DNA of 64,000 nucleotides from contig NZ_JAUYQD010000108.1 of assembly GCF_030697375.1 (NCBI RefSeq), positions 1 through 64,000 of the forward strand, given 5' to 3'. Positions 8,778 to 24,433 of the stretch are shown piece by piece. The notes beneath the pieces were generated by a model, which saw only the letters and a program-made list of their open reading frames with translations, was not told the origin of the DNA and searched no databases. The position numbers were made by a program, and so were the translations under genes. The DNA is from Rhodoferax sp. (GTDB taxonomy: Bacteria > Pseudomonadota > Gammaproteobacteria > Burkholderiales > Burkholderiaceae_C). Every line of letters starts with the position of its first letter. Positions within the stretch are counted from its first letter, which is position 1.

Positions 8778-8818
8778 TAATTAAAATTCAAATAAATTAT
8801 TTATTTAATCAGCTTTTA
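8778..8818 (-). promoter_or_regulatory. AT-rich cbbM promoter region with two candidate CbbR half-site motifs
   Basis: The 141 bases between cbbM and cbbR are strikingly AT-rich. They hold two matches to the TNA-N7-TNA pattern recognised by CbbR: TAA-N7-TCA at 8778-8790 and TAA-N7-TTA at 8806-8818. The matches lie 63-103 bases upstream of the cbbM ATG. The motif is loose, so in AT-rich DNA chance matches are possible. Confidence 0.45.
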
Positions 8819-8856
8819 ATGATGAATGTGGCCTTGCACGCCTCCCCACGCAGGCG

Positions 8857-9768
8857 TTAACTCCAGGAATCCGTCAGCGGCCCCCCTTGCTCGATCAAAA
8901 AGGCCTTGAAGGCCTTGGCGGCCGGGGACAGCTTTTTGTGGCTCAGGTGCGTCACATACCAGTGGCCCACCAGCGGCATGCCGTTGATGTCCACCAGGGC
9001 CAGGTGGCCGGCGGCCAGTTCGTGGCGCACGGTGCGCAGGGACAAAAAGCTCAGGCCCATGCCTGCCATCACGGCTTGTTTGATGGTTTCATTGCTGGGC
9101 ATTTCCATGGCCACCTTGGGGCTGATTTCGTGCTGTCCGAACAGGCGTTCCATGGCGGCGCGGGTGCCGGAGCCTTTCTCGCGCACCACAAAACTGAACT
9201 CCTTGAGCATCTCGAACTGCACCCGCTTGCGCCGGGACAAGGGGTGGTCGGGTGCACACACAATGCCCATGGGGTTGGTGGCAAAGGGAATGGCCTCGCA
9301 GTCCAGGGTGTTGGGCGCGCGGCCCATCACCACCAGATCGACCTCGTTGCGCGAGAGCATGCCCAGAATGTTCTCGCGATTGTCAATCCGCAAGGTCACG
9401 TCGATGCCGGGGAGTAACTTGCCAAAGCGCACCAGCAGCATGGGGACGAAGTATTTGGCAGTGCTGACGACGGCAAGCTCAATGTGGCCTTTGCGCACCC
9501 CCACATGCTCCGCCATCAGTGCTTCCAGGTCCTTGAGCTGGGCCATGGCGGCGATGGCGTGGGTCAAAAACTCCTGGCCCGCGCCGGTGAGCTGGATGTT
9601 GCGCCCAATGGGTTCAATGAGGGGGAGGCCAAAAGCGTCTTCCAGTTGGCGGATTTGCATGGAAACGGCCGGCTGCGTCACAAACAGGCGCTCGGCGGCT
9701 TTGGAGACGGATTTATCTCGCGCAACTTCGATGAAGGTCTGGATTTGCTTGAGGGTGTAGTTGCGCAT
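8857..9768 (-). CDS. cbbR: LysR-type regulator of CO2 fixation genes
   Basis: 303-aa LysR-family activator. The N-terminal winged helix (LKQIQTFIEVARDKSVSKAAERLFVTQPAVSMQIRQLE region, residues 5-45) is followed by a periplasmic-binding-protein-like effector domain. It is placed between cbbM (downstream, same strand) and the divergent cbbY-F-P-T-Z operon, the standard location of CbbR, which senses metabolites such as RuBP or NADPH. The assignment as CbbR rests on this context plus the family match. Confidence 0.88.
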   Translation of the reverse strand: MRNYTLKQIQTFIEVARDKSVSKAAERLFVTQPAVSMQIRQLEDAFGLPLIEPIGRNIQLTGAGQEFLTHAIAAMAQLKDLEALMAEHVGVRKGHIELAVVSTAKYFVPMLLVRFGKLLPGIDVTLRIDNRENILGMLSRNEVDLVVMGRAPNTLDCEAIPFATNPMGIVCAPDHPLSRRKRVQFEMLKEFSFVVREKGSGTRAAMERLFGQHEISPKVAMEMPSNETIKQAVMAGMGLSFLSLRTVRHELAAGHLALVDINGMPLVGHWYVTHLSHKKLSPAAKAFKAFLIEQGGPLTDSWS

Positions 9769-12786: not shown

Positions 12787-14855
12787 TGAACACATCCTCC
12801 CCCGAACTCGACCGGAAGGTCGCCGCAGACCTGCCGCGCCAGATGGCCAATGCCATCCGTATGCTGGCCGTGGACGCGGTGGAAAAAGCCAAGTCCGGCC
12901 ACCCCGGCGCGCCAATGGGCATGGCCGACATCGCCGAGGTGCTGTGGCACCGCCACCTCAAACACAACCCCGCCAACCCTCATTGGCCAGACCGCGACCG
13001 CTTTGTGCTCTCCAACGGCCACGGCTCCATGCTGATCTATGCGCTCTTGCACCTCACGGGCTACGACCTGCCCCTGGCCGAGCTGCAAAACTTCCGCCAG
13101 TTGCACAGCAAAACCGCTGGCCACCCCGAAGTGGGCGTCACCCCCGGCGTGGAGACCACCACCGGCCCGCTGGGGCAGGGCCTGGCCAACGCCGTGGGCA
13201 TGGCGCTGGCCGAGAAACTGCTCGCCGACGAGTTCAACCGCGATGACGAAGAAACCAGCCACACCGTTGTGGACCACTTCACCTACGTCTTTTTGGGCGA
13301 CGGCTGCCTGATGGAGGGCATCAGCCACGAAGTCTGCTCGCTGGCCGGCACGCTGCGCCTGCCCAAGCTGGTGGCGTTTTACGACGACAACGGCATCTCC
13401 ATCGACGGCCATGTGCAAGGCTGGTTCACCGACGACACCCCCCAACGCTTTGAAGCCTATGGCTGGAACGTCATCCCCGCCGTGAACGGGCACGACCCCC
13501 AGGCCGTGGACGCTGCCGTGCGCGCCGCCAAAGCCCAGGCGGCTTTGCCCGAGGGCAAACCGACGCTGATTTGCTGCAAAACCGTGATCGGCATGGGCTC
13601 GCCCAACAAGGCGGGAACACACGACGTGCATGGCGCCGCCCTGGGCGTGGCCGAGGTGACCGCCACCCGCGCCGCACTGGGCTGGACCGCGCCGCCGTTT
13701 GAGGTGCCGGCCGACATTGCCAAGGCCTGGAACGCGGTGGAGCGCGGCACGGCGGCCGAGCGGGCGTGGCGTGTGCGCTTCGAGGCCTACCGCACGCAGT
13801 ACCCGCTGGAAGCCGCCGAGTTCGAGCGTCGCGTGGCGGGCGATCTGCTGCCCAATTTTGCCGACGCGCTGCCCGAACTGCTGGCCGCCATTGCCGCCAA
13901 ACCGGACGCCGTGGCCACGCGCAAAGCCAGCCAGAACGCGCTGGATGCGCTGAGCCGCCAAGTGCCCGAATTCTTCGGCGGCAGTGCCGACCTGACCGGC
14001 TCCAACCTCACCAACTTCAAAGGCAGCGTCAAGTGCGGCCGCGACCACTGGGGCAACCACCTGAGCTACGGCGTGCGCGAGTTCGGCATGGCCGCCATCA
14101 TGAATGGGCTGGCCCTGCATGGCGGCTACATCCCCTATGGCGGCACGTTTTTAACCTTCAGCGACTACAGCCGCAACGCCATCCGCATGGCCGCACTGAT
14201 GAAGCTACGCGTCATCCACGTCTTCACCCACGACAGCATTGGTCTGGGGGAGGACGGCCCCACGCACCAGAGCGTGGAGCATGTCCCCTCGCTGCGCATC
14301 ATCCCCAACCTGGATGTCTGGCGTCCGGCCGACGGACTGGAAACCGCCGTGGCCTGGGCCTGCGCCCTGGAGCGCAGGGACGGCCCCAGCGCCCTGTGCC
14401 TGTCCCGCCAAAACCTGCCGCGCCTCACGGGGGATGCCGACACGGCCGCCGCCATGGCGCAGCGCATCCGCCAGGGCGGCTATGTGCTGTCCGACACGGA
14501 CGGTGCCCAGGCCGTGATCGTGTCCACCGGCTCGGAGCTGGAGCTGGCCATGGCGGCGCAGGCGGCCTTGCAGAAAGTGGGCATCGCCACCCGCGTGGTG
14601 TCCATGCCCAGCACCTCGGTGTTTGACCGCCAGAGCGCCGCCTACCAGGAACAGGTGCTGCCGCTGGCCCTGCCCACCGTGGCGGTGGAAGCCGCCCACC
14701 CGGACTTCTGGCGCAAATACGTGGGCCGCACCGGGCGCGTGGTGGGCATCGCCAGCTTTGGCGAATCCGCCCCCGCGAAAGACTTGTATGCCCACTTTGG
14801 TATCACCAGCCAAAGCGTGGTGGAGGCCGTGCAGGCCTTGGTGGGGCGCCCATGA
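12786..14855 (+). CDS. cbbT: Transketolase
   Basis: TPP-dependent two-carbon transfer between CBB and pentose-phosphate sugars. 689 aa from the ATG at 12786 ([13 protein letters not shown]). Visible are the N-terminal [17 protein letters not shown] block, the TPP-binding [12 protein letters not shown] segment near residue 177, and the [18 protein letters not shown] motif near 490. The frame is open upstream to 12393, inside cbbP, but this part is a shadow of cbbP. The stop overlaps the cbbZ start (ATGA). Confidence 0.94.
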
Positions 14856-15523
14856 GCCCCTCCTTCGACCTGGTGATGTTCGACCTGGACGGCACGCTGG
14901 TGCAGACCGCGCCCGAAATCTGCGACGCCGTCAACGACACCCTGCGCCACTTTGACCTGCCCGAGGTCACCCAGGCGCAGGTGGCCGACTGGATAGGCCA
15001 CGGCACACGCGAACTGCTGATCCAGGCCCTGAGCCACAGCGGCCAAGGCAGCGTCGCCGAGGTGCGCGCCAGCGACAGCCTGGGCCGGATTGCCGCCGAG
15101 TTCGACACCCACTACCAGCGCCGCTGCGGCACCCGCAGCGCGCTGTACCCCCAAGTGCGCGAGAGCCTGGCGGCTTTGCGTGCGCGCGGCGTCAAGCTGG
15201 CCGTGGTGACCAACAAGGAGGGCCGCTTCACCACCACCGTGCTCAATGCCCACCAGCTCCTGCCCCTGCTGGACTGCGTGGTCAGCGGCGACACCCTGCC
15301 CACCAAAAAGCCCGACCCGGCCGGCATCCACCAGTGCCTGGCCGCGTTTGGCGTGCCGCCCACGCGGGCCCTGTTTGTGGGCGACTCCAGCATCGACGTG
15401 GCCGCCGCACGCAATGCTGGGGTGGCGGTTTGGGTGCTGCCCTATGGCTACAACATGGGTCAGCCGATTGCGGCCTGCGGCCCAGATCGGGTGATTGATG
15501 ATTGTTCGTTGCTACTGAATTGA
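14852..15523 (+). CDS. cbbZ: Phosphoglycolate phosphatase
   Basis: HAD hydrolase that removes 2-phosphoglycolate, the product of the RuBisCO oxygenase reaction. 223 aa with motif [12 protein letters not shown] at residues 9-19, VVTNKEGR near 117, KKPDP near 151 and [14 protein letters not shown] near 173. It overlaps cbbT by 4 bases and is last in the operon. Its last codons and stop (LLLN, TGA at 15521) lie inside copy B of the interspersed repeat, so the repeat insertion appears to have redefined the C-terminus. Confidence 0.9.
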
Positions 15524-15563
15524 TAGCTGCTTGCGCAGTGTTTTAGGGGGCTGGAGGGCGATT
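15508..15563 (+). repeat. Interspersed repeat copy B, left boundary of the CRISPR cassette
   Basis: 56-bp element with core GCTACTGAATTGATAGC, then TGCTTGCGCAGTG, and tail GGGGGCTGGAGGGCGATT. It is nearly identical to copy D at 22645-22700 and close to copies C and E. It carries two small inverted repeats (GCTA/TAGC and CTGC/GCAG). It marks the junction between the Calvin operon and the accessory island. Confidence 0.8.
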
Positions 15564-15738
15564 CCGTTATGAAAATCAATGAAGTTGTCCAAGAGGCGCT
15601 GCGACGGCTGGCATCGGTCCGCGCCGGCTGCAGTCAGCGGGCGCACATGCTGCGCAATGCCACCGATCTTTCCACTACGCGCCTCAGAACATTGCACTCT
15701 GTGCGAATGCCGGCAGGATGTGCCAGTGGAGCCGGTAG

Positions 15739-16002
15739 CTAATAACCATCATCCTTCCAGCGCTTGGTATTGAACAGCGCATTCATGACAGGTGTGGAAC
15801 AGCGTTCCCAATTGGCGGCTTCTCCGTTGCCACATGCGAACTCACCTTGAAGTGAAATCGGAGCCATCGATCTTCTCAAAAGCCGGTCATCAACGCTGAT
15901 CCTATACAGGGGCATCAGAGCGTTCGCATCCACGAGTGGTGACATTGCAGACCAAGATTGTTCTTTGCTAAAGTGGGCAGCGTAGTCCAAGCGCATTGCC
16001 AT
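15739..16002 (-). CDS. Hypothetical ORF at the left of the CRISPR cassette
   Basis: A minus-strand frame reads from ATG 16002 (MAMRLDYAAHFSKEQ) to TAG at 15739, 87 aa; the frame stays open to 16083. Amino-acid composition looks protein-like, with scattered Trp and Cys, but no good RBS is visible and no family is recognised. It is divergent from cas6. The rest of 15564-16038 holds only a 57-codon plus-strand frame from ATG 15570 (MKINEVVQEALRRLASV), also without support. The stretch may be promoter or leader DNA with a gene remnant. Confidence 0.3.
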   Translation of the reverse strand: MAMRLDYAAHFSKEQSWSAMSPLVDANALMPLYRISVDDRLLRRSMAPISLQGEFACGNGEAANWERCSTPVMNALFNTKRWKDDGY

Positions 16003-16038
16003 AGAAGATGCGTATGGATCGAACAGTCCGCACCGGCT

Positions 16039-16060
16039 GTTTTTGTCAAAAACAAGGAGG
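16039..16060 (+). promoter_or_regulatory. Palindrome plus strong RBS ahead of cas6
   Basis: GTTTTTG-T-CAAAAAC (16039-16053) is a perfect 7-bp-arm palindrome immediately followed by AAGGAGG (16054-16060) and the cas6 ATG at 16067. It could be an operator or an mRNA hairpin next to the ribosome-binding site. It decides the cas6 start, since the upstream in-frame start at 16043 lies inside the palindrome. Confidence 0.5.
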
Positions 16061-16066
16061 GAGCCA

Positions 16067-16531
16067 ATGGAATACACAATCACAAAGCCACCGAAAGTTG
16101 ACGGCTATGCTGTCCATCGCATGGTTGCCGGGCTATCGGATGGCGCACCGGCGCTGCATGTTGATGAGGGCGAAAAATTAACGATTCGAACCGAAGCGCC
16201 CATGCCCAGTGGGCATATTTTGGGGTTTTCGTTGCGGGCCTGCGTCGCGGTGAAAAACAAGGGGCGCCATCGCTACTTTCCTACCGACGATTGGCGATCG
16301 CGCCACGCTTGGCTCGCACGAAAGGGCTTGCAGCACGGGTTTGAAATCATCACGGTGCATTGCACCGCCAAGCACTTTGTCGTAGAGAAGCGTCCGGGCA
16401 CATTCACCATCGATGACACCCAATTTACAGGTGTCTTGAAAATCGTAGACCAAGAAAAATTTGCAGCCGCCTTGGTCTCAGGCATCGGAAACACAGCGCG
16501 TACCTTTGGGTTCGGCATGCTGGTCATCTAA
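16067..16531 (+). CDS. cas6: Cas6-type CRISPR RNA endonuclease (Csf5/Cas6e-like)
   Basis: Processes the precursor crRNA of the adjacent array. 154 aa from ATG 16067, chosen for its AAGGAGG site. Two features point to the Cas6e-type RAMP fold. One is a Tyr-x-x-His pair, Y14 and H17 in GYAVHRMV, at the position of the catalytic Tyr/His of Cas6e. The other is the C-terminal glycine-rich GIGNTARTFGFGMLVI loop typical of Cas6 proteins. It is first in a tight operon of cas6, csf2, csf3 and a csf1-position gene, then the array and dinG-HNH. Type IV-A loci carry Csf5 or a Cas6e-like protein in this role. Short for Cas6e (about 200 aa). Confidence 0.8.
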   Translation: MEYTITKPPKVDGYAVHRMVAGLSDGAPALHVDEGEKLTIRTEAPMPSGHILGFSLRACVAVKNKGRHRYFPTDDWRSRHAWLARKGLQHGFEIITVHCTAKHFVVEKRPGTFTIDDTQFTGVLKIVDQEKFAAALVSGIGNTARTFGFGMLVI

Positions 16532-16549
16532 TTTTTAACAGGGAAAGCC

Positions 16550-17530
16550 ATGAAAAAACAAAACATCATCATTGAAGCGGTCATCACCACCAAAGGCCCG
16601 CTGTCCATTGCCATGCCGGTTGCCCAAGGCGGACGCGCAAACGAATACAACAACTTTCCGCTCATGGCTCGTGGGCAAGACGAAGAAGGCAAGTTAATGC
16701 AGACGGCCTACCTGCCTGCCAGTACCGTGCGCGGCTTTCTGCGCCGTGCGTCTGGCCTCGCGGCAATGGAAAAACGTGGCATCGGCAAGACCACGTTGCA
16801 GCAGGCCTACTCGGACATCCTGGGTCAATCTGCCGACGCCAAAGAAGAGGTGGATCTGGTCAAACTGAATGCCTTGCGCGATGGCGACCCGATCCTCGAC
16901 CTCTTTGGATCCTGGTCGATCAAGTCGCGGCTGCTCGTGAGCAACTTTCTGCCCAAGGCCAACGTTCTGCCCCAGGCGGTTACCGGCGTTAGAAAAGACT
17001 TGGAAGATACCGATGGCGTGCTGGAAGGTTTGAGCGAGTCTGACCGACAGGCGTACCACAACCGCAGCGACATCAATAGTCAGCGTGCAGCAGCGGATGC
17101 GGTCGTCAAAGGAATCAAACGTGAGATTGCCAAGGCCAAGAAAGAGAGCAAACCGATGGCTGACCTTGACGCTGCGCTGGCGATTGCTGAATCCAAGGCT
17201 GCTGGGCTCAAGTCCGAAATGGGCGACATGGCCAACTCGTCACGCACCATTACCGAGTTCTTTGCTATGCCGGTCGATGTTGCCCTCCATGGGCGCATGG
17301 TGATCGAGCAGGCCAAGGAACGCGACCTCGGCCTGCTCCTGCAAGCGCTGGACGCACTCTCCACACGTCCGATCCTGGGTGCTCAAGTTGCCCGGGGTTG
17401 CGGCGAAATCGCTGGGCATTTCACCATCAAGGTGGATGGCATGGTGGTGAAAACCGTAGCCACTGGTGGCTGGGAGCCTTCACGCGTCGAAGACTTCGTG
17501 GCCGTGGAATCAGAACAAGCCGCTGCCTAG
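16550..17530 (+). CDS. csf2: Csf2 (Cas7-type backbone subunit of type IV effector)
   Basis: RAMP-superfamily backbone protein expected to polymerise along the crRNA. 326 aa. N-terminal strand IIIEAVITTKGPLSIA is followed by the AYLPASTVRGFLRRAS helix (residues 57-72), a Cas7-like signature. The C-terminal part RPILGAQVARGCGEIAGHF (near 280-298) is the usual Csf2/Csm3-like glycine motif. A long charged helical insertion, about residues 160-230 and rich in Ala, Lys and Glu, is likely the thumb or an added coiled coil. RBS AGGGAAAG; 18 bases after cas6. Confidence 0.82.
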   Translation: MKKQNIIIEAVITTKGPLSIAMPVAQGGRANEYNNFPLMARGQDEEGKLMQTAYLPASTVRGFLRRASGLAAMEKRGIGKTTLQQAYSDILGQSADAKEEVDLVKLNALRDGDPILDLFGSWSIKSRLLVSNFLPKANVLPQAVTGVRKDLEDTDGVLEGLSESDRQAYHNRSDINSQRAAADAVVKGIKREIAKAKKESKPMADLDAALAIAESKAAGLKSEMGDMANSSRTITEFFAMPVDVALHGRMVIEQAKERDLGLLLQALDALSTRPILGAQVARGCGEIAGHFTIKVDGMVVKTVATGGWEPSRVEDFVAVESEQAAA

Positions 17531-17536
17531 TTCGTC

Positions 17537-18154
17537 ATGGACAAGCTGCAAATCACGGCCACCTTGAGCGACCGCTTCATCACTGGCGGCGGCTACCTGA
17601 CGTTTGACGCCCTCCTGGCGTCAGCGGTCTACAGCCTGACCCAAGACGTGGATCAGGCGCACAACCAGTTGCCCATCAAACAGGTGGACGGCCTGTACTA
17701 CGCCAGCGCGGCCATTTATGAATCGGTGGCCACTGGCACGGTAACCATCGTCCAGTCCATGCGACCTGACGATGTGTGGCTCGACCACCAATGGCTCAAG
17801 AAAAACAAGCGCGGCGCAGTCCACACCAAGTTCAGCAACCTAAGCGACAACGTCATGAGCAGCTACAAGACCATTGCAGCACCGACCATGACGTGGTACT
17901 GCGAGGGCGATGCCGACCGGATACGAGCACTGCTGGCGCATTTGCCCATGATTGGCAAAAAGCGAACGTGCTCAGTGACGCGGTGGGATGTTGATGAAGG
18001 CGAACTCGATGGCGTTCAAGGCTACGCCGACGAACCCCTGCGTCCTGTGCCTGTGAAAATGTGGCGCGGTGATACGCCCGGCCCCGTAGTTGACGCCGCG
18101 TGGCGCCCTGCCTACTGGGACGCCGCTGGTCGCACCGCCTGTTTTGTACCTTGA
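17537..18154 (+). CDS. csf3: Csf3 (Cas5-type subunit of type IV effector)
   Basis: 205-aa protein that begins LQITATLSDRFITGGGYLTFDALLASAVYS, a strand-loop-helix arrangement typical of Csf3/Cas5-like RAMP proteins, which cap the 5-prime handle of crRNA. It ends with a Pro/Trp-rich segment (PVVDAAWRPAYWDAAGRTACFVP). It starts 6 bases after csf2, and the order csf2-csf3 matches type IV-A operons. Assignment rests on N-terminal pattern and synteny rather than on a catalytic motif, since none is expected. Confidence 0.75.
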   Translation: MDKLQITATLSDRFITGGGYLTFDALLASAVYSLTQDVDQAHNQLPIKQVDGLYYASAAIYESVATGTVTIVQSMRPDDVWLDHQWLKKNKRGAVHTKFSNLSDNVMSSYKTIAAPTMTWYCEGDADRIRALLAHLPMIGKKRTCSVTRWDVDEGELDGVQGYADEPLRPVPVKMWRGDTPGPVVDAAWRPAYWDAAGRTACFVP

Positions 18155-18163
18155 GATGCTGCC

Positions 18164-18649
18164 ATGACCACACTGGAGTTTTTCAACAACTACTTTGGTC
18201 GCCACCTAGTGGCGCAAACCGGCAACGCCGTGGCCGACGCAACGCGCGCCTTGTCAACGGGGCACAGAATGGCCAAAGGCGGTGATCCCCAACGCATCGC
18301 ATCGGGCTGGGCGGTGATCTCTGAGGAGGTGAGTACCATCCAATTCAAACTGGCCGCCACGGGGTTGCGCTATAGCGATCAGACGCGCTATGAAGCGTGG
18401 CTGGATGCGCTGGAATCGTTCAGCGGCAAGCCCCTGATGCTGGTCGAGTTTGACAAGAAACCCGTGCCCGTTGCCAATCTGTTCAGGACACATGATTTGC
18501 GTGCTGTCCAAGTGTGTTCGCCGGGCGGCGTGGAACTCTTTGACTTTACGAAAGAACCAACGCTTTTGAGCGGAAAAGCGCATAAAGTTTTGTGGAAACT
18601 TAAACTGGAAAGACAGAAAAATTCTTTCAAATCAAACACTTCCGCGTGA
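18164..18649 (+). CDS. Protein in the csf1 position; candidate divergent large or small effector subunit
   Basis: 161 aa, last protein gene before the array, 9 bases after csf3. In type IV-A operons this slot is usually near csf1 (Cas8-like, with a Cys4 zinc finger). This protein has a single Cys (VQVCSPG) and therefore no zinc finger. Residues 1-50 look helical; 95-160 are strand-rich, ending in a Lys-rich tail (HKVLWKLKLERQKNSF). It could be a minimal Csf1, a Cas11-like small subunit, or a new component of the DinG-HNH variant. Function is inferred from the operon only. Confidence 0.55.
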   Translation: MTTLEFFNNYFGRHLVAQTGNAVADATRALSTGHRMAKGGDPQRIASGWAVISEEVSTIQFKLAATGLRYSDQTRYEAWLDALESFSGKPLMLVEFDKKPVPVANLFRTHDLRAVQVCSPGGVELFDFTKEPTLLSGKAHKVLWKLKLERQKNSFKSNTSA

Positions 18650-18652
18650 TCG

Positions 18653-19084
18653 GATCAAGCCACCCTGAAAATGGGTGGTTACTGGAACTTGTCCCCTTTC
18701 TTTGTGAACACCAGCACGGATCAAGCCACCCTGAAAATGGGTGGTTACTGGAACTGGGATAACTACAAGGCGAGCAGGCTGGCTGATCAAGCCACCCTGA
18801 AAATGGGTGGTTACTGGAACATGTCAGCCTGACGCCAAATAACCGCAATGGATCAAGCCACCCTGAAAATGGGTGGCTACTGGAACAGTTGCTTGGTTGA
18901 GCAATTCTTGGCCTCCGATCAAGCCACCCTGAAAATGGGTGGTTACTGGAACAACAACGCCATCAACGCCTTGCGCGCCACAGATGAAGCCACCCTGAAA
19001 ATGGGTGGTTACTGGAACAACAACGCCATCAACGCCTTGCGCGCCACAGATGAAGCCACCCTGAAAATGGGTGGTTACTGCAAT
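18653..19084 (+). CRISPR. CRISPR array, seven 36-bp repeats, six 30-bp spacers (type IV)
   Basis: Repeats start at 18653, 18719, 18785, 18851, 18917, 18983 and 19049 with a strict 66-bp period. The repeat holds CCACCC-TGAAAAT-GGGTGG, a 6-bp hairpin with a 7-base loop, then TTACTGGAAC. If Cas6 cuts at the hairpin base as usual, the 8-base 5-prime handle would be ACTGGAAC. Repeat 4 has one change (GGCTAC). Repeats 6 and 7 begin GATGAAGCC instead of GATCAAGCC. Repeat 7 ends TGCAAT rather than TGGAAC, so decay marks the dinG side as the old end and the csf side as the leader. Spacers 5 and 6 (18953-18982, 19019-19048) are identical. No cas1 or cas2 is present. Confidence 0.95.
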
Positions 19085-19099
19085 TTTTGGAGATTAACC

Positions 19100-20617
19100 A
19101 TGTTTCGTTCGCACGAACAGCAGCATTTCAGTGATGTGCTGCGCAAGCACCTGCAGCACCCCGACGCGCCGCTTTTACTGGAGGGTGGGGTTGGCCTGGG
19201 GAAGACCCGCGCCTATCTGGCGGCACTGGCCAACACCGATCACACGGTCGCGCTGGTGCTGCCCACGCATCAACTGATCGACCAGCTGCTGGCCAGCGCT
19301 GATCTGGCCGCCATTGCCCTACCGCTGGCCGTTTTTAGACCAGCCAGGATGTTTGAAACACAGGCGTTGTACCTGGCGCAGCGGCAGGCTGCACGGGACT
19401 CCCGGGTGATGCTCTGCACCGCTGCCAGCGTGGTCATCGACCGGCGGCTCAAGGGGGAATACAACGGCGCAACCGAGCGCGATGTCATTTTGTTCGATGA
19501 GGCGGATCAGTTGCCCGATATGACCGCATTGCAAAGCGATTTCGTCATTGACGCCACTCTCTTGCAGGGGCAAGCGCTGCCGGTTGCGCTGGAGCGCATC
19601 AGCACCACCCGGTCGCATGGAGTCGAGGCCGAACAAAAGGCGGCAGCACGGGTGATGTTGGAAATTCTGGCGGAGCCGGTTGGCTATGCCTCGGTCGGTC
19701 TGGACGATTGCGGCCATGCGCGCTTGCATCACCGCTTGCCTGGGCGCTTGCTGAAGAAGGTCAGCAACCGGGCCAGTACGGTGTTCATCTCCGCAACGCT
19801 GTCCCATAACGGCAAGTTTGACAATTTCAAATACGCAATGGGGCTGGAGTCCATCAGCCGTCTATCCGGCAGCATTGAGCCGGAACGCCACGGCACCCTC
19901 GATTTCGTGCTGCATGCGCATGAAATGGAAACGGATGAATGGTTTGCCGCCACCGTTCAATCTATTCAGAACTCTCGGCGCCCCACGCTGGTGGTCACGC
20001 CCAGCCACGCTCTTACCGAGCGTCTGATGGCGGCCGTGGGCGAACAGCAAGACTTGCTGATTCGCGCAGGCGCATGGGCGGGGCTGGATACACCCACCCG
20101 CTGGCGAACAGTCGTGATTCCGCGCGTGCCGTTTGGCGCACCTGTCGTCGTGGACGGGGAGGCGGTCACGTCTTACCTGGACGCGAAAGTTACCGCCAGT
20201 CGGCGCATGCGACAAGCCATTGGCCGTGGGCTCAGAACGCCCGATGCCGTGTGCACCGTGGTCGTTCTGGATGCTCGGGCAGACAGGCTGGGCAGTTTTG
20301 TGCCCGAGCGCTTTGCTGCAAATTGGTTGGAACGCAAGGTTTTTGAGGAGGGTGCCCGGCAGGAGTTGCTGCTATCAAAAGCCGAGCGTGACCCGGCCTT
20401 GCGAAATGCGGCACTTAAACACTACGGAGCCAAATGCCAACACCCTGCTTGCGAGGTAGGCCAGGCGCACCTGCTGGACGTGCATCACCTTGACCCGGTG
20501 AGCGAGGGTGTGCGGCGCACGACTCTGAAGGATGTGACGGTGCTGTGTGCGAATCATCACCGTCAGGCGCACTTTGAGATGAAGATGGCCATTCCTGATA
20601 GCGGACATTGGCGGTGA
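19100..20617 (+). CDS. dinG: DinG-family helicase fused to a C-terminal HNH nuclease (CasDinG/Csf4 variant)
   Basis: 505 aa from ATG 19100 (MFRSHEQQHF, RBS TTGGAGA). Superfamily 2 XPD/DinG helicase: Walker A GGVGLGKT at 29-36, DEAD at 133-136 in ILFDEADQLPD, motif VI QAIGRGLR at 372-379. The four Fe-S cysteines of canonical DinG are absent; only C106 lies between motifs I and II. The last 60 residues are an HNH domain: C446-x4-C451, then H462-H463 in LDVHHLDP, then C483-A-N-H-H487, with H491. Type IV-A DinG unwinds DNA at crRNA targets; the added HNH should allow cutting. The frame is open through the array to 18848, but that part is repeat sequence. The nearest repeat ends 15 bases before the ATG. 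Confidence 0.9.
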   Translation: MFRSHEQQHFSDVLRKHLQHPDAPLLLEGGVGLGKTRAYLAALANTDHTVALVLPTHQLIDQLLASADLAAIALPLAVFRPARMFETQALYLAQRQAARDSRVMLCTAASVVIDRRLKGEYNGATERDVILFDEADQLPDMTALQSDFVIDATLLQGQALPVALERISTTRSHGVEAEQKAAARVMLEILAEPVGYASVGLDDCGHARLHHRLPGRLLKKVSNRASTVFISATLSHNGKFDNFKYAMGLESISRLSGSIEPERHGTLDFVLHAHEMETDEWFAATVQSIQNSRRPTLVVTPSHALTERLMAAVGEQQDLLIRAGAWAGLDTPTRWRTVVIPRVPFGAPVVVDGEAVTSYLDAKVTASRRMRQAIGRGLRTPDAVCTVVVLDARADRLGSFVPERFAANWLERKVFEEGARQELLLSKAERDPALRNAALKHYGAKCQHPACEVGQAHLLDVHHLDPVSEGVRRTTLKDVTVLCANHHRQAHFEMKMAIPDSGHWR

Positions 20618-20719
20618 GTTTGGTCTGGTGTGTGGGTGGCAAACTGTCGGCAAGGGGAGGCGTCAAAAATGGCTGATCTACAGGCATAGCGCCCCCGATC
20701 GCGTCATTCCAGAATGTTG

Positions 20720-20770
20720 GTTGCTACTGAATTAATAGCTGCTTGCGCAGTGTTCTAGGGGGCTGGAGCC
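20720..20770 (+). repeat. Interspersed repeat copy C, right boundary of the CRISPR cassette
   Basis: Core GCTACTGAATTAATAGC plus TGCTTGCGCAGTG and GGGGGCTGGAGCC. Homology to copy D extends about 25 bases upstream (both contain ATCGCGTCATT). Together with copy B it encloses the type IV locus in direct orientation. The 100 bases between the dinG stop and this repeat contain no gene. Confidence 0.8.
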
Positions 20771-20825
20771 GTATTTCAAACGAGGTCTTGATTCACTTGG
20801 CGTGCCCGCGTTGGATCGATGATCT

Positions 20826-21093
20826 TCAGGCGCGTAGCGTGGTCAGCAGCGTGACCAGTTCGTGCAGGGCGGTGAAGGGCTCGGGGGCGGTGTGGGCATT
20901 GAACTTCGCTGCCAGTGCCAGTGCCAGTGCCTGCGCCTGTCAGCTGATGCGCGGCGCGGATCTCTTCCAGATACAACGGTTCGGTTTTGCTGCCTTCGGT
21001 GACGATCAGGATGCGGGCGTAGCTGGCGCGCCGCACATCCTTGGCTGCTTTGCGGCGCAACTGCCGGTCTTTGGCCTGGTTGTCGCGCCCCAT
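20826..21093 (-). pseudogene. Truncated and frameshifted rloB-like gene (AbiL partner)
   Basis: The N-terminal 51 residues, including ARILIVTEGSKTEPLYLEEIR, match the start of RloB proteins (normally about 200 aa). The frame then runs through three GCCAGT hexamers (20910-20930 region) and, one frame over, continues as FNAHTAPEPFTALHELVTLL to a TGA at 20828, which resembles the RloB C-terminus. The central part, with the expected catalytic core, has been deleted. The start overlaps the stop of the upstream ATPase gene. The unshifted frame runs on to 20776. I judge it non-functional. Confidence 0.7.
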
Positions 21094-22364
21094 CAGTGCT
21101 TCACTCCCAGGGCCTGGTTGCGCAGCAAGGGCAGTGCACCATAGCGCCCTTGAAGGTAACCACGCTCCAGCGCTTCATTCTTGCGCGGACTGAAGTCGAG
21201 CAGTGGATACAGCGATGAGCTTTGATCCGGGCGCTTTTCGACAAACCAGACTTGATCGCGCCGGAGCAGGCCGTACGCATCGAGCAGCGAGGTGTCGTGC
21301 GTGGTAAAGATCAGCTGCGCGCCGCCGGTGTTGACTTCAGGCCGGTGGAACAAGCGCACCAGAGCCTGCACCAGCAGCGTGTGCAGGCTGGTATCCAGTT
21401 CATCCACCACCAGCGTTTGCCCCTTGCCCAGGATGTCCAAGATAGGCCCGGTCAGGAACAACAGGTTGCGGGTGCCGCTGGATTCGTCCATCAGGTCGAA
21501 AACCGCCTTGCCGTGCTCGGTGATGTGGTGAAACTTCACTTCGTCCACCGCCTGCTCACTGGCTGTCTCCTCGCGTTTGCCGGTCGCAAGGTCGAAATGG
21601 ATGGTGTGCACCATGGCGTGCTTGGTGGCCACTTCAATGTCGGAAATGCTGATGTCGGCGGCACGCAGAAACTCACAAATGGCTTTGCGCTGCGCCTCTT
21701 GCTTGAGCATTTGCACCGAAAACTGCGGAGACAGCGGCGACTGCTCGTTGAAGATCACCAGCCGGTTGGCAAACCAGTCAAACACGGGGCGCAATGCCCC
21801 GCTGTTGAGTTGCACAGCCACTGACAGGAACAAGGCATTGGATCGGGTCGCACCCTCCCACAGGTTCTTGGCACCCTTCAGGCTGGGGCCGAACTCATAC
21901 ACATCCTTGCCGCTTTCGGCATCGAAGTGGCGCTCGAACCAGCGTTGCGGCTTGAAGGCCTTGTAGACCAGAAGTTGCTCACTGACGATGCGTTGCGCGT
22001 TCATGGCAAAACCATACTGGTAGCGCACGCCGTCGAGGATGAAGGTGACCTCGAACTCCGTGGGCTGGCTGCCCGATGTGGCGTCCAGCTTGAAAGGTTG
22101 GAGCCGGTCAAAGGTCTGGCCCGGCTGCAAAGCGGCCGATTCCAGCACCACGCCACGCATGTACTGCAGGGCCTTGATGAGGTTGGACTTGCCGCTGGCG
22201 TTGGCGCCATATACCACCGCGCTCTTGAGCAAATGCGGGGCCGCCTTCAGCCCGGTATCCAGGGCATGGGTGTCCAGCAAGGTCTTGTCGGAGGACGCAA
22301 CCAGGCTGAACACCTGCTCGTCGCGCAGGCTGCGGAAGTTCTTGACGCGGAACTCGACCAGCAT
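21093..22364 (-). CDS. AAA15/AAA_21-type ATPase, RloA/AbiLi-like
   Basis: 423-aa ABC/SMC-like ATPase starting MLVEFRVKNFRSLRDEQ (ATG 22364 with AGGTG upstream). Walker A VVYGANASGKSNL is near residue 50. The signature region SSGTRNLLFLTGPIL is near 295. Walker B TLVVDELDTSLH is near 318, and the H-loop-like FTTHDTSLLD near 350. Such ATPases pair with RloB in AbiL phage-abortive systems; here the partner rloB overlaps the stop codon but is broken. The ATPase reads intact. The 280 bases upstream (22365-22644) are AT-rich near the start and otherwise empty, apart from a short gene-like frame on the minus strand (22548 inward, MRETTVKTQFLRVVKDAG) that decays after about 35 codons. Confidence 0.8.
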   Translation of the reverse strand: MLVEFRVKNFRSLRDEQVFSLVASSDKTLLDTHALDTGLKAAPHLLKSAVVYGANASGKSNLIKALQYMRGVVLESAALQPGQTFDRLQPFKLDATSGSQPTEFEVTFILDGVRYQYGFAMNAQRIVSEQLLVYKAFKPQRWFERHFDAESGKDVYEFGPSLKGAKNLWEGATRSNALFLSVAVQLNSGALRPVFDWFANRLVIFNEQSPLSPQFSVQMLKQEAQRKAICEFLRAADISISDIEVATKHAMVHTIHFDLATGKREETASEQAVDEVKFHHITEHGKAVFDLMDESSGTRNLLFLTGPILDILGKGQTLVVDELDTSLHTLLVQALVRLFHRPEVNTGGAQLIFTTHDTSLLDAYGLLRRDQVWFVEKRPDQSSSLYPLLDFSPRKNEALERGYLQGRYGALPLLRNQALGVKH

Positions 22365-22644
22365 TGCATTCACCTATTGAGTAAAAAATATATCGATATT
22401 GTGCACATGAAAAGCAATTTATTGAAATATTTTGCGTTGCACATGAGTTTTTGATAAGGCAGGCAAGCTGATCAAAGTCTGTCGGAACACGGAGCCCCGC
22501 ATCTTTGACTACACGCAGGAATTGGGTTTTGACCGTGGTTTCGCGCATCTATGCCTATGCCTGATGCAGGTTCGACAGGTCGCAGATCAAGCCAGCAGAT
22601 TGGGCCTAAACCATCTCCCCACATCGCGTCATTTTCGAATGCTA

Positions 22645-22700
22645 GTTGCTATTGAATTGATAGCTGCTTGCGCAGTGTTTTAGGGGGCTGGAGGGCGATT
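22645..22700 (+). repeat. Interspersed repeat copy D
   Basis: 56 bp, core GCTATTGAATTGATAGC with TGCTTGCGCAGTG and GGGGGCTGGAGGGCGATT. It differs from copy B at one position by eye. It separates the AbiL-like cassette from the antitoxin/AlbA cassette. Confidence 0.8.
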
Positions 22701-22741
22701 TCATTGATTTTTTGACAGCGCCATTGAGGTGCGTATGACGG

Positions 22742-22753: not shown

Positions 22754-22781
22754 ACATCAACCGAGCGCAATGGAGGCCACC

Positions 22782-23099
22782 ATGGCTTTTTCAGCAAGTG
22801 ACGTGATTCCGCTTTTGCAGGCCCGTGCCAATTTCTCCGAACTGGCCGACCAGGTGAAGGTCGGCACCGAGAAGATCATCACCAAAGACGGCGAGAGCTA
22901 CGTTGCCATCATCGACGCGCAGCGGCTGGACTACTACCACCAACTGGAAGATGCGGAAGCATTCCTGATCCAAGCCCAAGCGCCAAAGGCGTTCGACGCA
23001 CTGCTGGACGAGTTGACCGACACCGTCATCCCCAACCTCATTACCTGCTGCTCTAAGCGCGGCTTTCCTTATTTCGAATTCTCCAAAACGCGCCAGTGA
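22782..23099 (+). CDS. Phd/YefM-family antitoxin without a toxin gene
   Basis: 105 aa from ATG 22782 (MAFSASDVIPLLQARANF); an ATG at 22770 is also possible. The N-terminal half (ANFSELADQVKVGTEKIITKDGESYVAIID) is the Phd/YefM DNA-binding fold. Residues 60-80 form the helix that normally binds a RelE or Doc toxin. No toxin follows: the C-terminus (ITCCSKRGFPYFEFSKTRQ) runs into the convergent AlbA_2 gene, overlapping it by 31 bases. It is probably an orphan whose toxin was lost or replaced. Confidence 0.75.
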   Translation: MAFSASDVIPLLQARANFSELADQVKVGTEKIITKDGESYVAIIDAQRLDYYHQLEDAEAFLIQAQAPKAFDALLDELTDTVIPNLITCCSKRGFPYFEFSKTRQ

Positions 23100-24433
23100 C
23101 CGCTTCTGGCAGAGCCAATACGCTGTAATGCACCTTTGGCTTTTAATCGCTTGATGGTTTTTTCAACCGCTGTGGTGCTGATGTTCAAGTGTTGACTCAT
23201 CTCGGCAATGCTGATCATCGGCTTGGCGCGAATGAGTTGGAGCAAGCGCGACTGAGGTGAATCACCCAACCCTTCACCCAACCCTTCACCCAACCCTTCA
23301 TCTGATTTTTTCGGTGGCGCAACAGCTGCCAACGCCGGAAACGCAAACTCCACCCAAAACCCCGCGCTATCGCAGTCAAAGCGCGGTGCCGGGCTGCCAT
23401 AGTCAAGGCAAGTGTTGCGAATCAGGTCAATACCGCGCCCCCAGGATTCAATCTTGCCCGCCAGAAACAAGGCTCTGGCAATGTCCGGGTTGGCCGGTTG
23501 GGACGAATGTTTGGCCATCAAACGCGCCAAAGACCAATCGGGCGGCAACTGGCCCGCATTCCAGATCAGCAGCTTGTGGTCATACACGCTGATTTGAATC
23601 GGGATCAGCGCGCCATAGTCCTTGTGCGCAATGGCATTGATCAGAGCCTCACGCAAGGCGGCCTCGGGCACGGGGAAACGCTCCAGCCGTTGCGTGCCCT
23701 GGTATGAAATGCCGGCCCGCAAGTACTTGGTCAGCAGCAGGTCCAGCGTTTTCTCCACCTGCGTGAACAAGTCGCCTTCAATCACGTCGTGGTAGAGCAA
23801 ATCGGAATCGGTGCGAAAAAAACCGATCTTCACACAGGCGCCGGTGGTGAACTTCTCGGGGTCGGCGTGAAACAGCAGCGTGGCTGCCCGTTTGAGAAAG
23901 CGTCCTTCGGTCAAGTGCAGTTTTTCAACCAGCACGGCATCGCTCTCGGCCAAAGACTCCGTGCCCAAGCGGCCACTTTTACCCGCCAGCTTGCGAAACG
24001 ACTGAATGGCACGCGGCTCCAGATCGGCCATGGTCACATACGGCACCGGTACGCCATCCCAATGGCGGCCCAGTTTGCGCAGCAGAAAACGGTCCAACGC
24101 TGCGCCGCGCAGTTCCTGCTTGGTGCTGCCGCTGCGCAGGTGGTATTCGCCCTTGTAGCTGATGGGGCTGGGGTAGGCCTCGACCACGATTTCCAGCCAG
24201 TCAAGACCCGCCTGCGTGTGCAGGTTGACCGCCACCACGATGCCCAAAATGTCGCGCACCTTGTTCGGGATGTCCTCCAGAAGCCGGACGGCGTTGGCCA
24301 GGCCCACCACCTCGCCCTGGTCGTTCTTGCCAATCATCAGCGTGCCGCCATCGGCATTGGCAAAGCCGCAGATCCATTTCAGGTACTCATCGCGCCAAGA
24401 CTGCTTCCACTCGGTGTTCTGGCTTTCAATCAT
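23069..24433 (-). CDS. AlbA_2/Schlafen-domain ATP-binding protein with C-terminal winged helix
   Basis: 454 aa. Residues 1-110 form an AlbA_2 (Schlafen-type) domain: ESQNTEWKQSW, GFANADGGTLMIG and GSTKQELRG are its three conserved blocks. Residues about 230-370 form a HATPase_c_4-like domain (REALINAIAHKDY, then SWGRGIDLIRNTC). Residues 385-454 form a winged helix (MISIAEMSQHLNISTTAVEKTIKRL). A hinge made of three copies of GLGE reflects a 12-bp tandem repeat at about 23264-23300. These proteins are putative regulators common in defence islands; function unproven. Confidence 0.8.
   Translation of the reverse strand: MIESQNTEWKQSWRDEYLKWICGFANADGGTLMIGKNDQGEVVGLANAVRLLEDIPNKVRDILGIVVAVNLHTQAGLDWLEIVVEAYPSPISYKGEYHLRSGSTKQELRGAALDRFLLRKLGRHWDGVPVPYVTMADLEPRAIQSFRKLAGKSGRLGTESLAESDAVLVEKLHLTEGRFLKRAATLLFHADPEKFTTGACVKIGFFRTDSDLLYHDVIEGDLFTQVEKTLDLLLTKYLRAGISYQGTQRLERFPVPEAALREALINAIAHKDYGALIPIQISVYDHKLLIWNAGQLPPDWSLARLMAKHSSQPANPDIARALFLAGKIESWGRGIDLIRNTCLDYGSPAPRFDCDSAGFWVEFAFPALAAVAPPKKSDEGLGEGLGEGLGDSPQSRLLQLIRAKPMISIAEMSQHLNISTTAVEKTIKRLKAKGALQRIGSARSGHWRVLENSK

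Follow-up and report, generated by a model that had tools for sequence, protein, structure and literature searches.

A putative type IV-A2 CRISPR-Cas system with a DinG-HNH helicase in Rhodoferax sp. and its betaproteobacterial relatives

Organization of the locus

The stretch of DNA analyzed here (the window) comprises positions 1 to 64,000 of contig NZ_JAUYQD010000108.1 of Rhodoferax sp. (assembly GCF_030697375.1). Positions 16,039-20,617 hold a CRISPR (clustered regularly interspaced short palindromic repeats)-Cas locus, which a first-pass annotation, made from the sequence alone, had described as a compact type IV system whose DinG helicase is fused to an HNH nuclease domain. Five genes and a CRISPR array form a tight run on the plus strand, with intervening gaps of 3-18 nt. 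The whole system, array included, spans approximately 4.6 kb, and all five genes are intact.

The run begins with cas6 (16067-16531), predicted to encode a Cas6e-like CRISPR RNA (crRNA) endoribonuclease, which hits the PADLOC profile typeIV_Cas6 (2.3e-22) and the Pfam family CRISPR_assoc (4e-17); a profile built from its homologues finds Cas6e/Cse3 structures in PDB at ~1e-3. It is followed by csf2 (16550-17530), the putative Cas7 backbone gene (PADLOC Csf2_0_IV, 1e-34; Pfam RAMP), whose homologue profile finds Csf2 in the type IV-A3 complex 8RC2 at 3e-13, and by csf3 (17537-18154), a putative cas5 (PADLOC Csf3_0_IV, 9e-38), for which Pfam gave nothing useful and whose homologue profile matches Csf3 of 8RC3 and 7XFZ at ~1e-4. 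The fifth effector gene (18164-18649, 161 aa) occupies the position of csf1/cas8, and the CRISPR array (18653-19084) separates it from casDinG-HNH (19100-20617). The latter encodes a 505-aa protein consisting of a superfamily 2 helicase (residues ~1-400) and a C-terminal HNH domain (residues ~431-493), with matches to Pfam DEAD/Helicase_C_2 and, in the proposed comparison with Csf4/DinG profiles, to PADLOC Csf4_2_IVA1 at 1.3e-58. NCBIfam names Cse3, Csf2, Csf3 and Csf4 for the locus, all below the curated cut-offs, so Cas6, Csf2, Csf3 and DinG appear here as divergent members of their families.

Open reading frames (ORFs), repeats and PADLOC profiles thus agree with the first-pass annotation on the placement of all six elements. 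Two details of it did not stand: the start codon of cas6, which homologues set at 16067, and the reading of its 'csf1-position gene', in fourth position, as csf1, which Pfam, NCBIfam, PADLOC, a PDB profile search and hhalign left without support. The protein encoded by this gene has no significant match in NCBIfam or PADLOC, nor in Pfam, where YrpD came first (E 0.05, below the cut-off), or PDB, where the best E was 1.6, and its hhalign comparison with two type IV-A Csf1 proteins, based on very thin profiles, showed no relation (probability 0.5 on a percentage scale). The gene is nevertheless kept in four other loci, with 42-63% identity. Since no significant similarity connects it with Csf1 or with the other families searched, a role can be proposed from the position of the gene only.

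Type IV loci normally lack cas1 and other adaptation genes, and spacers are reportedly gained in trans, to go by the title of a 2024 report by Benz. The claim that the locus lacks cas1, cas2 and cas3 held for cas1 genome-wide (no match across the 99.99% complete genome, in a search positive in 9 of 14 control genomes), while cas2 and cas3 were sought at the locus only. The operon consists of the five genes listed, and ORFs, Pfam, NCBIfam and PADLOC placed no Cas3, Cas8e or Cas11 among them. In type I-E systems these three stand beside Cas6e; only the Cas6 of the window locus is I-E-like.

Relatives of the DinG-HNH locus

Homologous loci proved to be rare. The window genome was the sole match among 399 genomes drawn from its family (protein query, E 1e-20), 345 from its order (alignment query, E 1e-30) and 398 from its phylum (family profile, E 1e-25), these three draws overlapping. 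The class draw gave three matches in 369 genomes (E 1e-25), i.e. the window and two DinG proteins of ordinary IV-A-like loci without HNH, which were left out of the count of relatives. In another class, judged alphaproteobacterial, one of 385 genomes matched (E 1e-22) and its protein carries the HNH domain; two weak matches (E ~1e-13) came from another class, and one small class of 48 genomes gave no match, controls included. A scan of a species-genome collection with two peptide patterns retrieved 44 stretches, five of which encode relatives, a count that the use of two patterns makes a lower bound. These at least five relatives come from metagenome-assembled genomes (MAGs) of Rhodoferax (78% identity), Rubrivivax (59%), Gallionella (53%) and an alphaproteobacterium (50%; judged to be the same record as the single match among the 385 genomes), and from Pelomonas sp. 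UHG3 (59%). No relative was found in viral contigs by peptide pattern or in a plasmid collection by tblastn at 1e-5.

Four of the five named loci are betaproteobacterial and, judged by sequence identity (53-78%), the Rhodoferax, Rubrivivax and Gallionella MAGs together with Pelomonas appear to form a small betaproteobacterial branch with the window locus. The gene blocks are shuffled among the loci. In the window, [cas6-csf2] and [csf3-fifth gene] are followed by the array and dinG; in Pelomonas the array lies between [cas6-csf2] and [csf3-fifth gene]-dinG; in Gallionella and the alphaproteobacterium [csf3-fifth gene] precedes [cas6-csf2], the array and dinG. This last arrangement is also the published one for CasDinG-HNH loci (PMC11981726). 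Contig ends cut the Rubrivivax locus (fifth gene, then dinG) and the Rhodoferax locus (array, then dinG). The Gallionella locus lies close to gyrB, dnaN and dnaA and is also chromosomal. In the Pelomonas stretch, a phage-integrase-family gene (14486-16177, minus strand) is located approximately 4 kb downstream of the IV-A2 locus.

The helicase and its HNH domain

The fusion of DinG to an HNH domain was borne out by several lines of evidence. The window protein contains the Walker A lysine K35, the Walker B residues D133-E134 and the announced HNH motifs C446-x4-C451, H462-H463 and C483-x2-H486-H487. In the alignment of the six homologues K35, D133, E134, C446, H462, H463, D478, C483, H487 and H491 are invariant, while C451 and H486 vary. 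Moreover, D478, H487 and H491 are spaced like D514, H523 and H527 of the Sulfitobacter DinG-HNH protein, as compared through the published residue numbers (PMC10910872, PMC11981726).

Profile searches for the HNH domain gave a mixed result: Pfam calls no HNH on the window protein alone, but does so in two of the six homologues, and a profile of all six members matches the HNH domain of McrA in PDB (6GHC, 4e-4) and, weakly, that of IscB (0.08). The same profile matches CasDinG of 8S35 at 3.6e-12. In an AlphaFold2 model computed from the six sequences, the C-terminal region would fold as expected for HNH, with strands at 459-463 and 479-483 and a helix at 484-496 in a beta-beta-alpha layout, predicted with moderate confidence. 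Foldseek ranked CasDinG of a IV-A3 complex first for this model (E 8e-15).

The CRISPR array and its spacers

The array is composed of seven copies of a 36-nt repeat at an exact 66-nt period, giving six 30-nt spacers, five of them distinct (spacers 5 and 6 are identical). The last repeat copy, on the dinG side, is degenerate at its 3' end. The repeat is predicted to form an 8-pair hairpin (-13.9 kcal/mol, z -3.5) followed by 8 nt, the presumed 5' handle, which is the layout of a Cas6e-type site. Covariation in the hairpin is weak, as only one of the eight pairs changes on both sides, one of 56 cells fails to pair, and the value is also attained in 69 of 500 shuffles.

The arrays of four relatives also follow the 66-nt period, except for two steps of 65 nt in the alphaproteobacterium and two of 60 nt in Gallionella; in the Rhodoferax and alphaproteobacterial arrays the constant part is 35 nt and the spacers are mostly 31 nt. 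In Gallionella the last two repeats (8791-8946 of its stretch) lack the hairpin loop, and it is there that the period is 60 nt. Where the start of the array is present, as in four of the loci, the first repeat begins 3-51 nt past a cas gene, which leaves no room for a long leader.

Spacer 1 (18689-18718, plus strand) matches IMG/VR contig 3300048691_000094 in 29 of 30 bases, the sole mismatch being the last base. The protospacer is located within an ORF for a DNA methyltransferase. As the contig also encodes NinB, dUTPase, Sak4-like annealing, O-like replication and helicase genes, it represents a phage replication region. Among 13 short exact matches that were checked (12 of window spacers and one of a Rhodoferax spacer), this was the only one that extended, and the calculated chance of such an extension is ~2 in a million per match. 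The viral-contig scans required an exact stretch of 18-20 nt, so targets mismatched there would be missed. Matches of this length for spacers 2, 4 and 5 were rejected, since the remainder fails (20-23 of 30 bases), as was the match of the Rhodoferax spacer (21 of 31 bases), and spacer 3 had no 18-nt match in the viral contigs. In the phage collection none of the five spacers found a convincing target among the matches listed (best E 0.2). In plasmids the best 8 of 23 weak matches of spacer 5 (best E 0.1) included no convincing target, and the other four spacers gave none at E 1. Thus the targets of the other four distinct spacers were not found in the phage, plasmid and viral-contig collections searched. 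With up to three mismatches, spacer 1 occurs in the host genome in the array only; this genome-wide search covered spacer 1 and not the other four. From the four relatives' arrays 44 spacers were taken, two Gallionella ones as 24-nt pieces, and one of the 44, from Rhodoferax, was searched in a collection.

Interpretation of the locus

The gene content, as read from the sequence, corresponds to that of type IV-A2 in Csf2, Csf3, DinG with Walker A and B motifs, an HNH domain with the H-D-H triad (H462/H463, D478, H487), and an array with Cas6. We consider it very probable that the locus is, as proposed, a chromosomal type IV-A2 (CasDinG-HNH) system, in which a crRNA complex and DinG-HNH would cut phage DNA. 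The steps of its action are inferred by homology, chiefly with the Sulfitobacter system. The genes cas6, csf2, csf3, the fifth subunit gene, the array and dinG-HNH are probably transcribed together as one operon. Cas6 would cut the repeat at the 3' base of the hairpin, leaving the 8-nt handle ACUGGAAC in front of a 30-nt guide, and Csf2, Csf3, Cas6 and the fifth protein would assemble with the crRNA into a complex that opens the target DNA. DinG-HNH might then load onto the displaced strand and unwind in the 5'-3' direction, its HNH domain cutting both target strands.

The first-pass annotation had ascribed a DinG-HNH branch of type IV to a 2023 report, and such a system has indeed been published. 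DinG-HNH of Sulfitobacter sp. JL08 mediates interference that depends on a protospacer-adjacent motif (PAM), with directional double-strand degradation (Altae-Tran et al. 2023, PMC10910872). This interference required all five proteins, the Walker B motif and the HNH triad, and the crRNA guides are 30 nt long (PMC10910872); the published PAM is 5' YCN. The variant, reviewed as CasDinG-HNH in Sulfitobacter and Nordella (PMC11981726), the only two organisms named for it in the texts consulted, received the name IV-A2 in the 2025 classification, which presents it as the first within type IV for which cutting of the target was demonstrated (PMC12669027).

Several points weigh against our interpretation. 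A search of 15400-21200 for sigma-70-like promoters gave none, against 1.8 expected by chance. Sequence comparison does not connect the fifth protein with Csf1, and the model of its fold is too poor for use, with a mean predicted local distance difference test score (pLDDT) of 47.5. The DinG model is itself of moderate quality (mean pLDDT 64.8, predicted template modelling score 0.44) and overlaps only loosely with CasDinG (template modelling score 0.39 by query length). The ratio of nonsynonymous to synonymous changes per site (pN/pS) between the window and the Rhodoferax MAG (helicase part 0.20, HNH part 0.17) speaks for the interpretation, but such values are rough because synonymous sites are near saturation; the ratio is 0.46 and 0.41 for the two parts in the more distant pair of window and Pelomonas, and 0.2-0.25 between Rubrivivax and Pelomonas. 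Finally, the 5' flank of the single protospacer is GCG, which agrees with YCN in its C at -2 but departs from it in its G at -3; IV-A2 members may vary in their PAM.

The lack of a promoter-like site, together with the absence of a Cas1 match in the host genome and the short array in which one of the five distinct spacers is duplicated, would also fit a locus that has decayed or been silenced and has lost interference. We regard this as unlikely, since the five genes are intact and the catalytic residues are kept, loci without cas1 are normal for type IV, and pN/pS of the helicase and HNH parts is low against the nearest homologue. Both parts are under purifying selection.

Alternatively, DinG might block transcription as in ordinary IV-A systems, which, in agreement with the first-pass annotation, act without cleavage (PMC11519345, PMC12669027), with the HNH domain serving another purpose such as DNA binding or rare nicking. 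The key HNH residues are, however, kept in all six homologues, and the Sulfitobacter homologue lost interference when HNH residues were substituted (PMC10910872), which makes a non-cutting DinG-HNH highly improbable.

The chance that the repeats are coding sequence read in frame with dinG instead of a CRISPR array is practically nil. In favour of this reading, 66 equals 3 x 22 and the dinG frame stays open back to 18848, so that an ORF at 18848-20617 spans the last four repeats. However, spacer 3 contains a stop codon, and homologues start dinG at the codon matching 19100. In Rhodoferax, Gallionella and the alphaproteobacterium the dinG frame meets a stop either within the array or between it and dinG. 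Four other loci show the 66-nt period with spacers of their own, and the repeat folds as a hairpin. These comparisons led us to reject the reading.

Returning to the type IV-A2 interpretation, the position of the array permits a further speculation. The dinG-HNH start codon follows closely on the hairpin of the last repeat, hence cleavage by Cas6 would free the nuclease mRNA and couple nuclease synthesis to guide maturation. Pelomonas would be an exception to this idea, as its array precedes csf3. We hold it rather doubtful that the array before dinG-HNH acts as such a processing switch and that the fifth subunit is a new family which replaces Csf1 and alters PAM reading in a phage-directed branch of IV-A2.

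Comparison with known systems

The window locus shares with the Sulfitobacter IV-A2 system a CasDinG with a C-terminal HNH domain, five effectors, an array within the locus and 30-nt guides (here deduced from spacer length). The two differ in host class (inferred), in the PAM (YCN versus the single natural flank GCG) and in gene order, which is cas6-cas7-cas5-fifth gene here and cas5-cas8-cas6-cas7 there (PMC11981726). The IV-A1 and IV-A3 systems (7XG3, 8S35) have the Csf2, Csf3 and DinG fold families and a Cas6 in common with the window locus, but are very distant in sequence (no match at 1e-5 in the plasmid collection). Their CasDinG carries no nuclease, whereas the window protein adds the C-terminal HNH domain and still has only 505 aa, against 624 aa in 8S35 chain M; the zinc-finger Csf1 of these systems is not recognisable in the window locus. 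HNH domains have also been recruited to class 1 complexes in I-E2 (Cas5-HNH) and I-F4 (Cas8-HNH) (PMC12669027), where they reside on Cascade subunits, in contrast to the helicase-borne HNH described here.

A full-text search of the open literature for 'type IV-A2' with HNH returned nothing, and a search combining type IV, betaproteobacteria, phage, spacers and DinG gave no paper about DinG-HNH among the matches listed. The kind of system is already known. Not found in the open texts consulted were a betaproteobacterial branch, shuffled gene blocks, a protospacer in phage DNA and a fifth subunit without family assignment.

For ordinary IV-A arrays, the known targets are mainly plasmids, and spacer 1 indicates that IV-A2 memory includes phage; its natural protospacer constitutes a ready test target. 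The window, with its four betaproteobacterial relatives, offers a second branch in which PAM, subunits and architecture can be compared, and supplies a compact five-gene system of a variant that is rare among the genomes searched.

Genomic context

The operon comes after gph (cbbZ), itself preceded by genes for fructose-bisphosphatase, phosphoribulokinase and transketolase, on a contig of 134 kb. Given these Calvin-cycle genes upstream and the betaproteobacterial affiliation of four of the five relatives, the system is likely a betaproteobacterial, chromosomal member of its type, as had been suggested.

An 88-nt unit, corresponding to the 3' end of gph together with an interspersed repeat, is present in three copies: a left one at 15481-15568 (plus strand), a right one just past dinG-HNH (20693-20780, plus strand; 80% identical to the left) and a third past the next defence-like cassette (22618-22705, 86%). 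They bracket the CRISPR cassette and this second cassette. Among 41 listed genome copies (40 of 276 candidates were scored) only these three reach the first 23 bases of the unit, which are the gph part proper. The arrangement looks like stepwise insertion at the gph end; no integrase was noticed among the ORFs examined near gph.

The second cassette contains a gene for an AbiL/RloA-like ATPase (20776-22373, minus strand; PADLOC AbiLi, 1e-103), adjoined by a short RloB-like ORF, perhaps a truncated partner, whose match covers no more than the start of the family and stays below its cut-off. Further on (22770-24433) lie an ORF that resembles Phd/YefM antitoxins, with a match short of the family cut-off, and a gene whose product has AlbA_2 and RecG-C-terminal-like domains, which by their domain matches appear to continue the defence-like island. 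At three of nine same-genus gph loci the next gene was judged by eye to be glyceraldehyde-3-phosphate dehydrogenase-, phosphoglycerate kinase- or aldolase-like, and these proteins have no tblastn match in the window. This suggests that the island may occupy the site where the cbb operon would continue.

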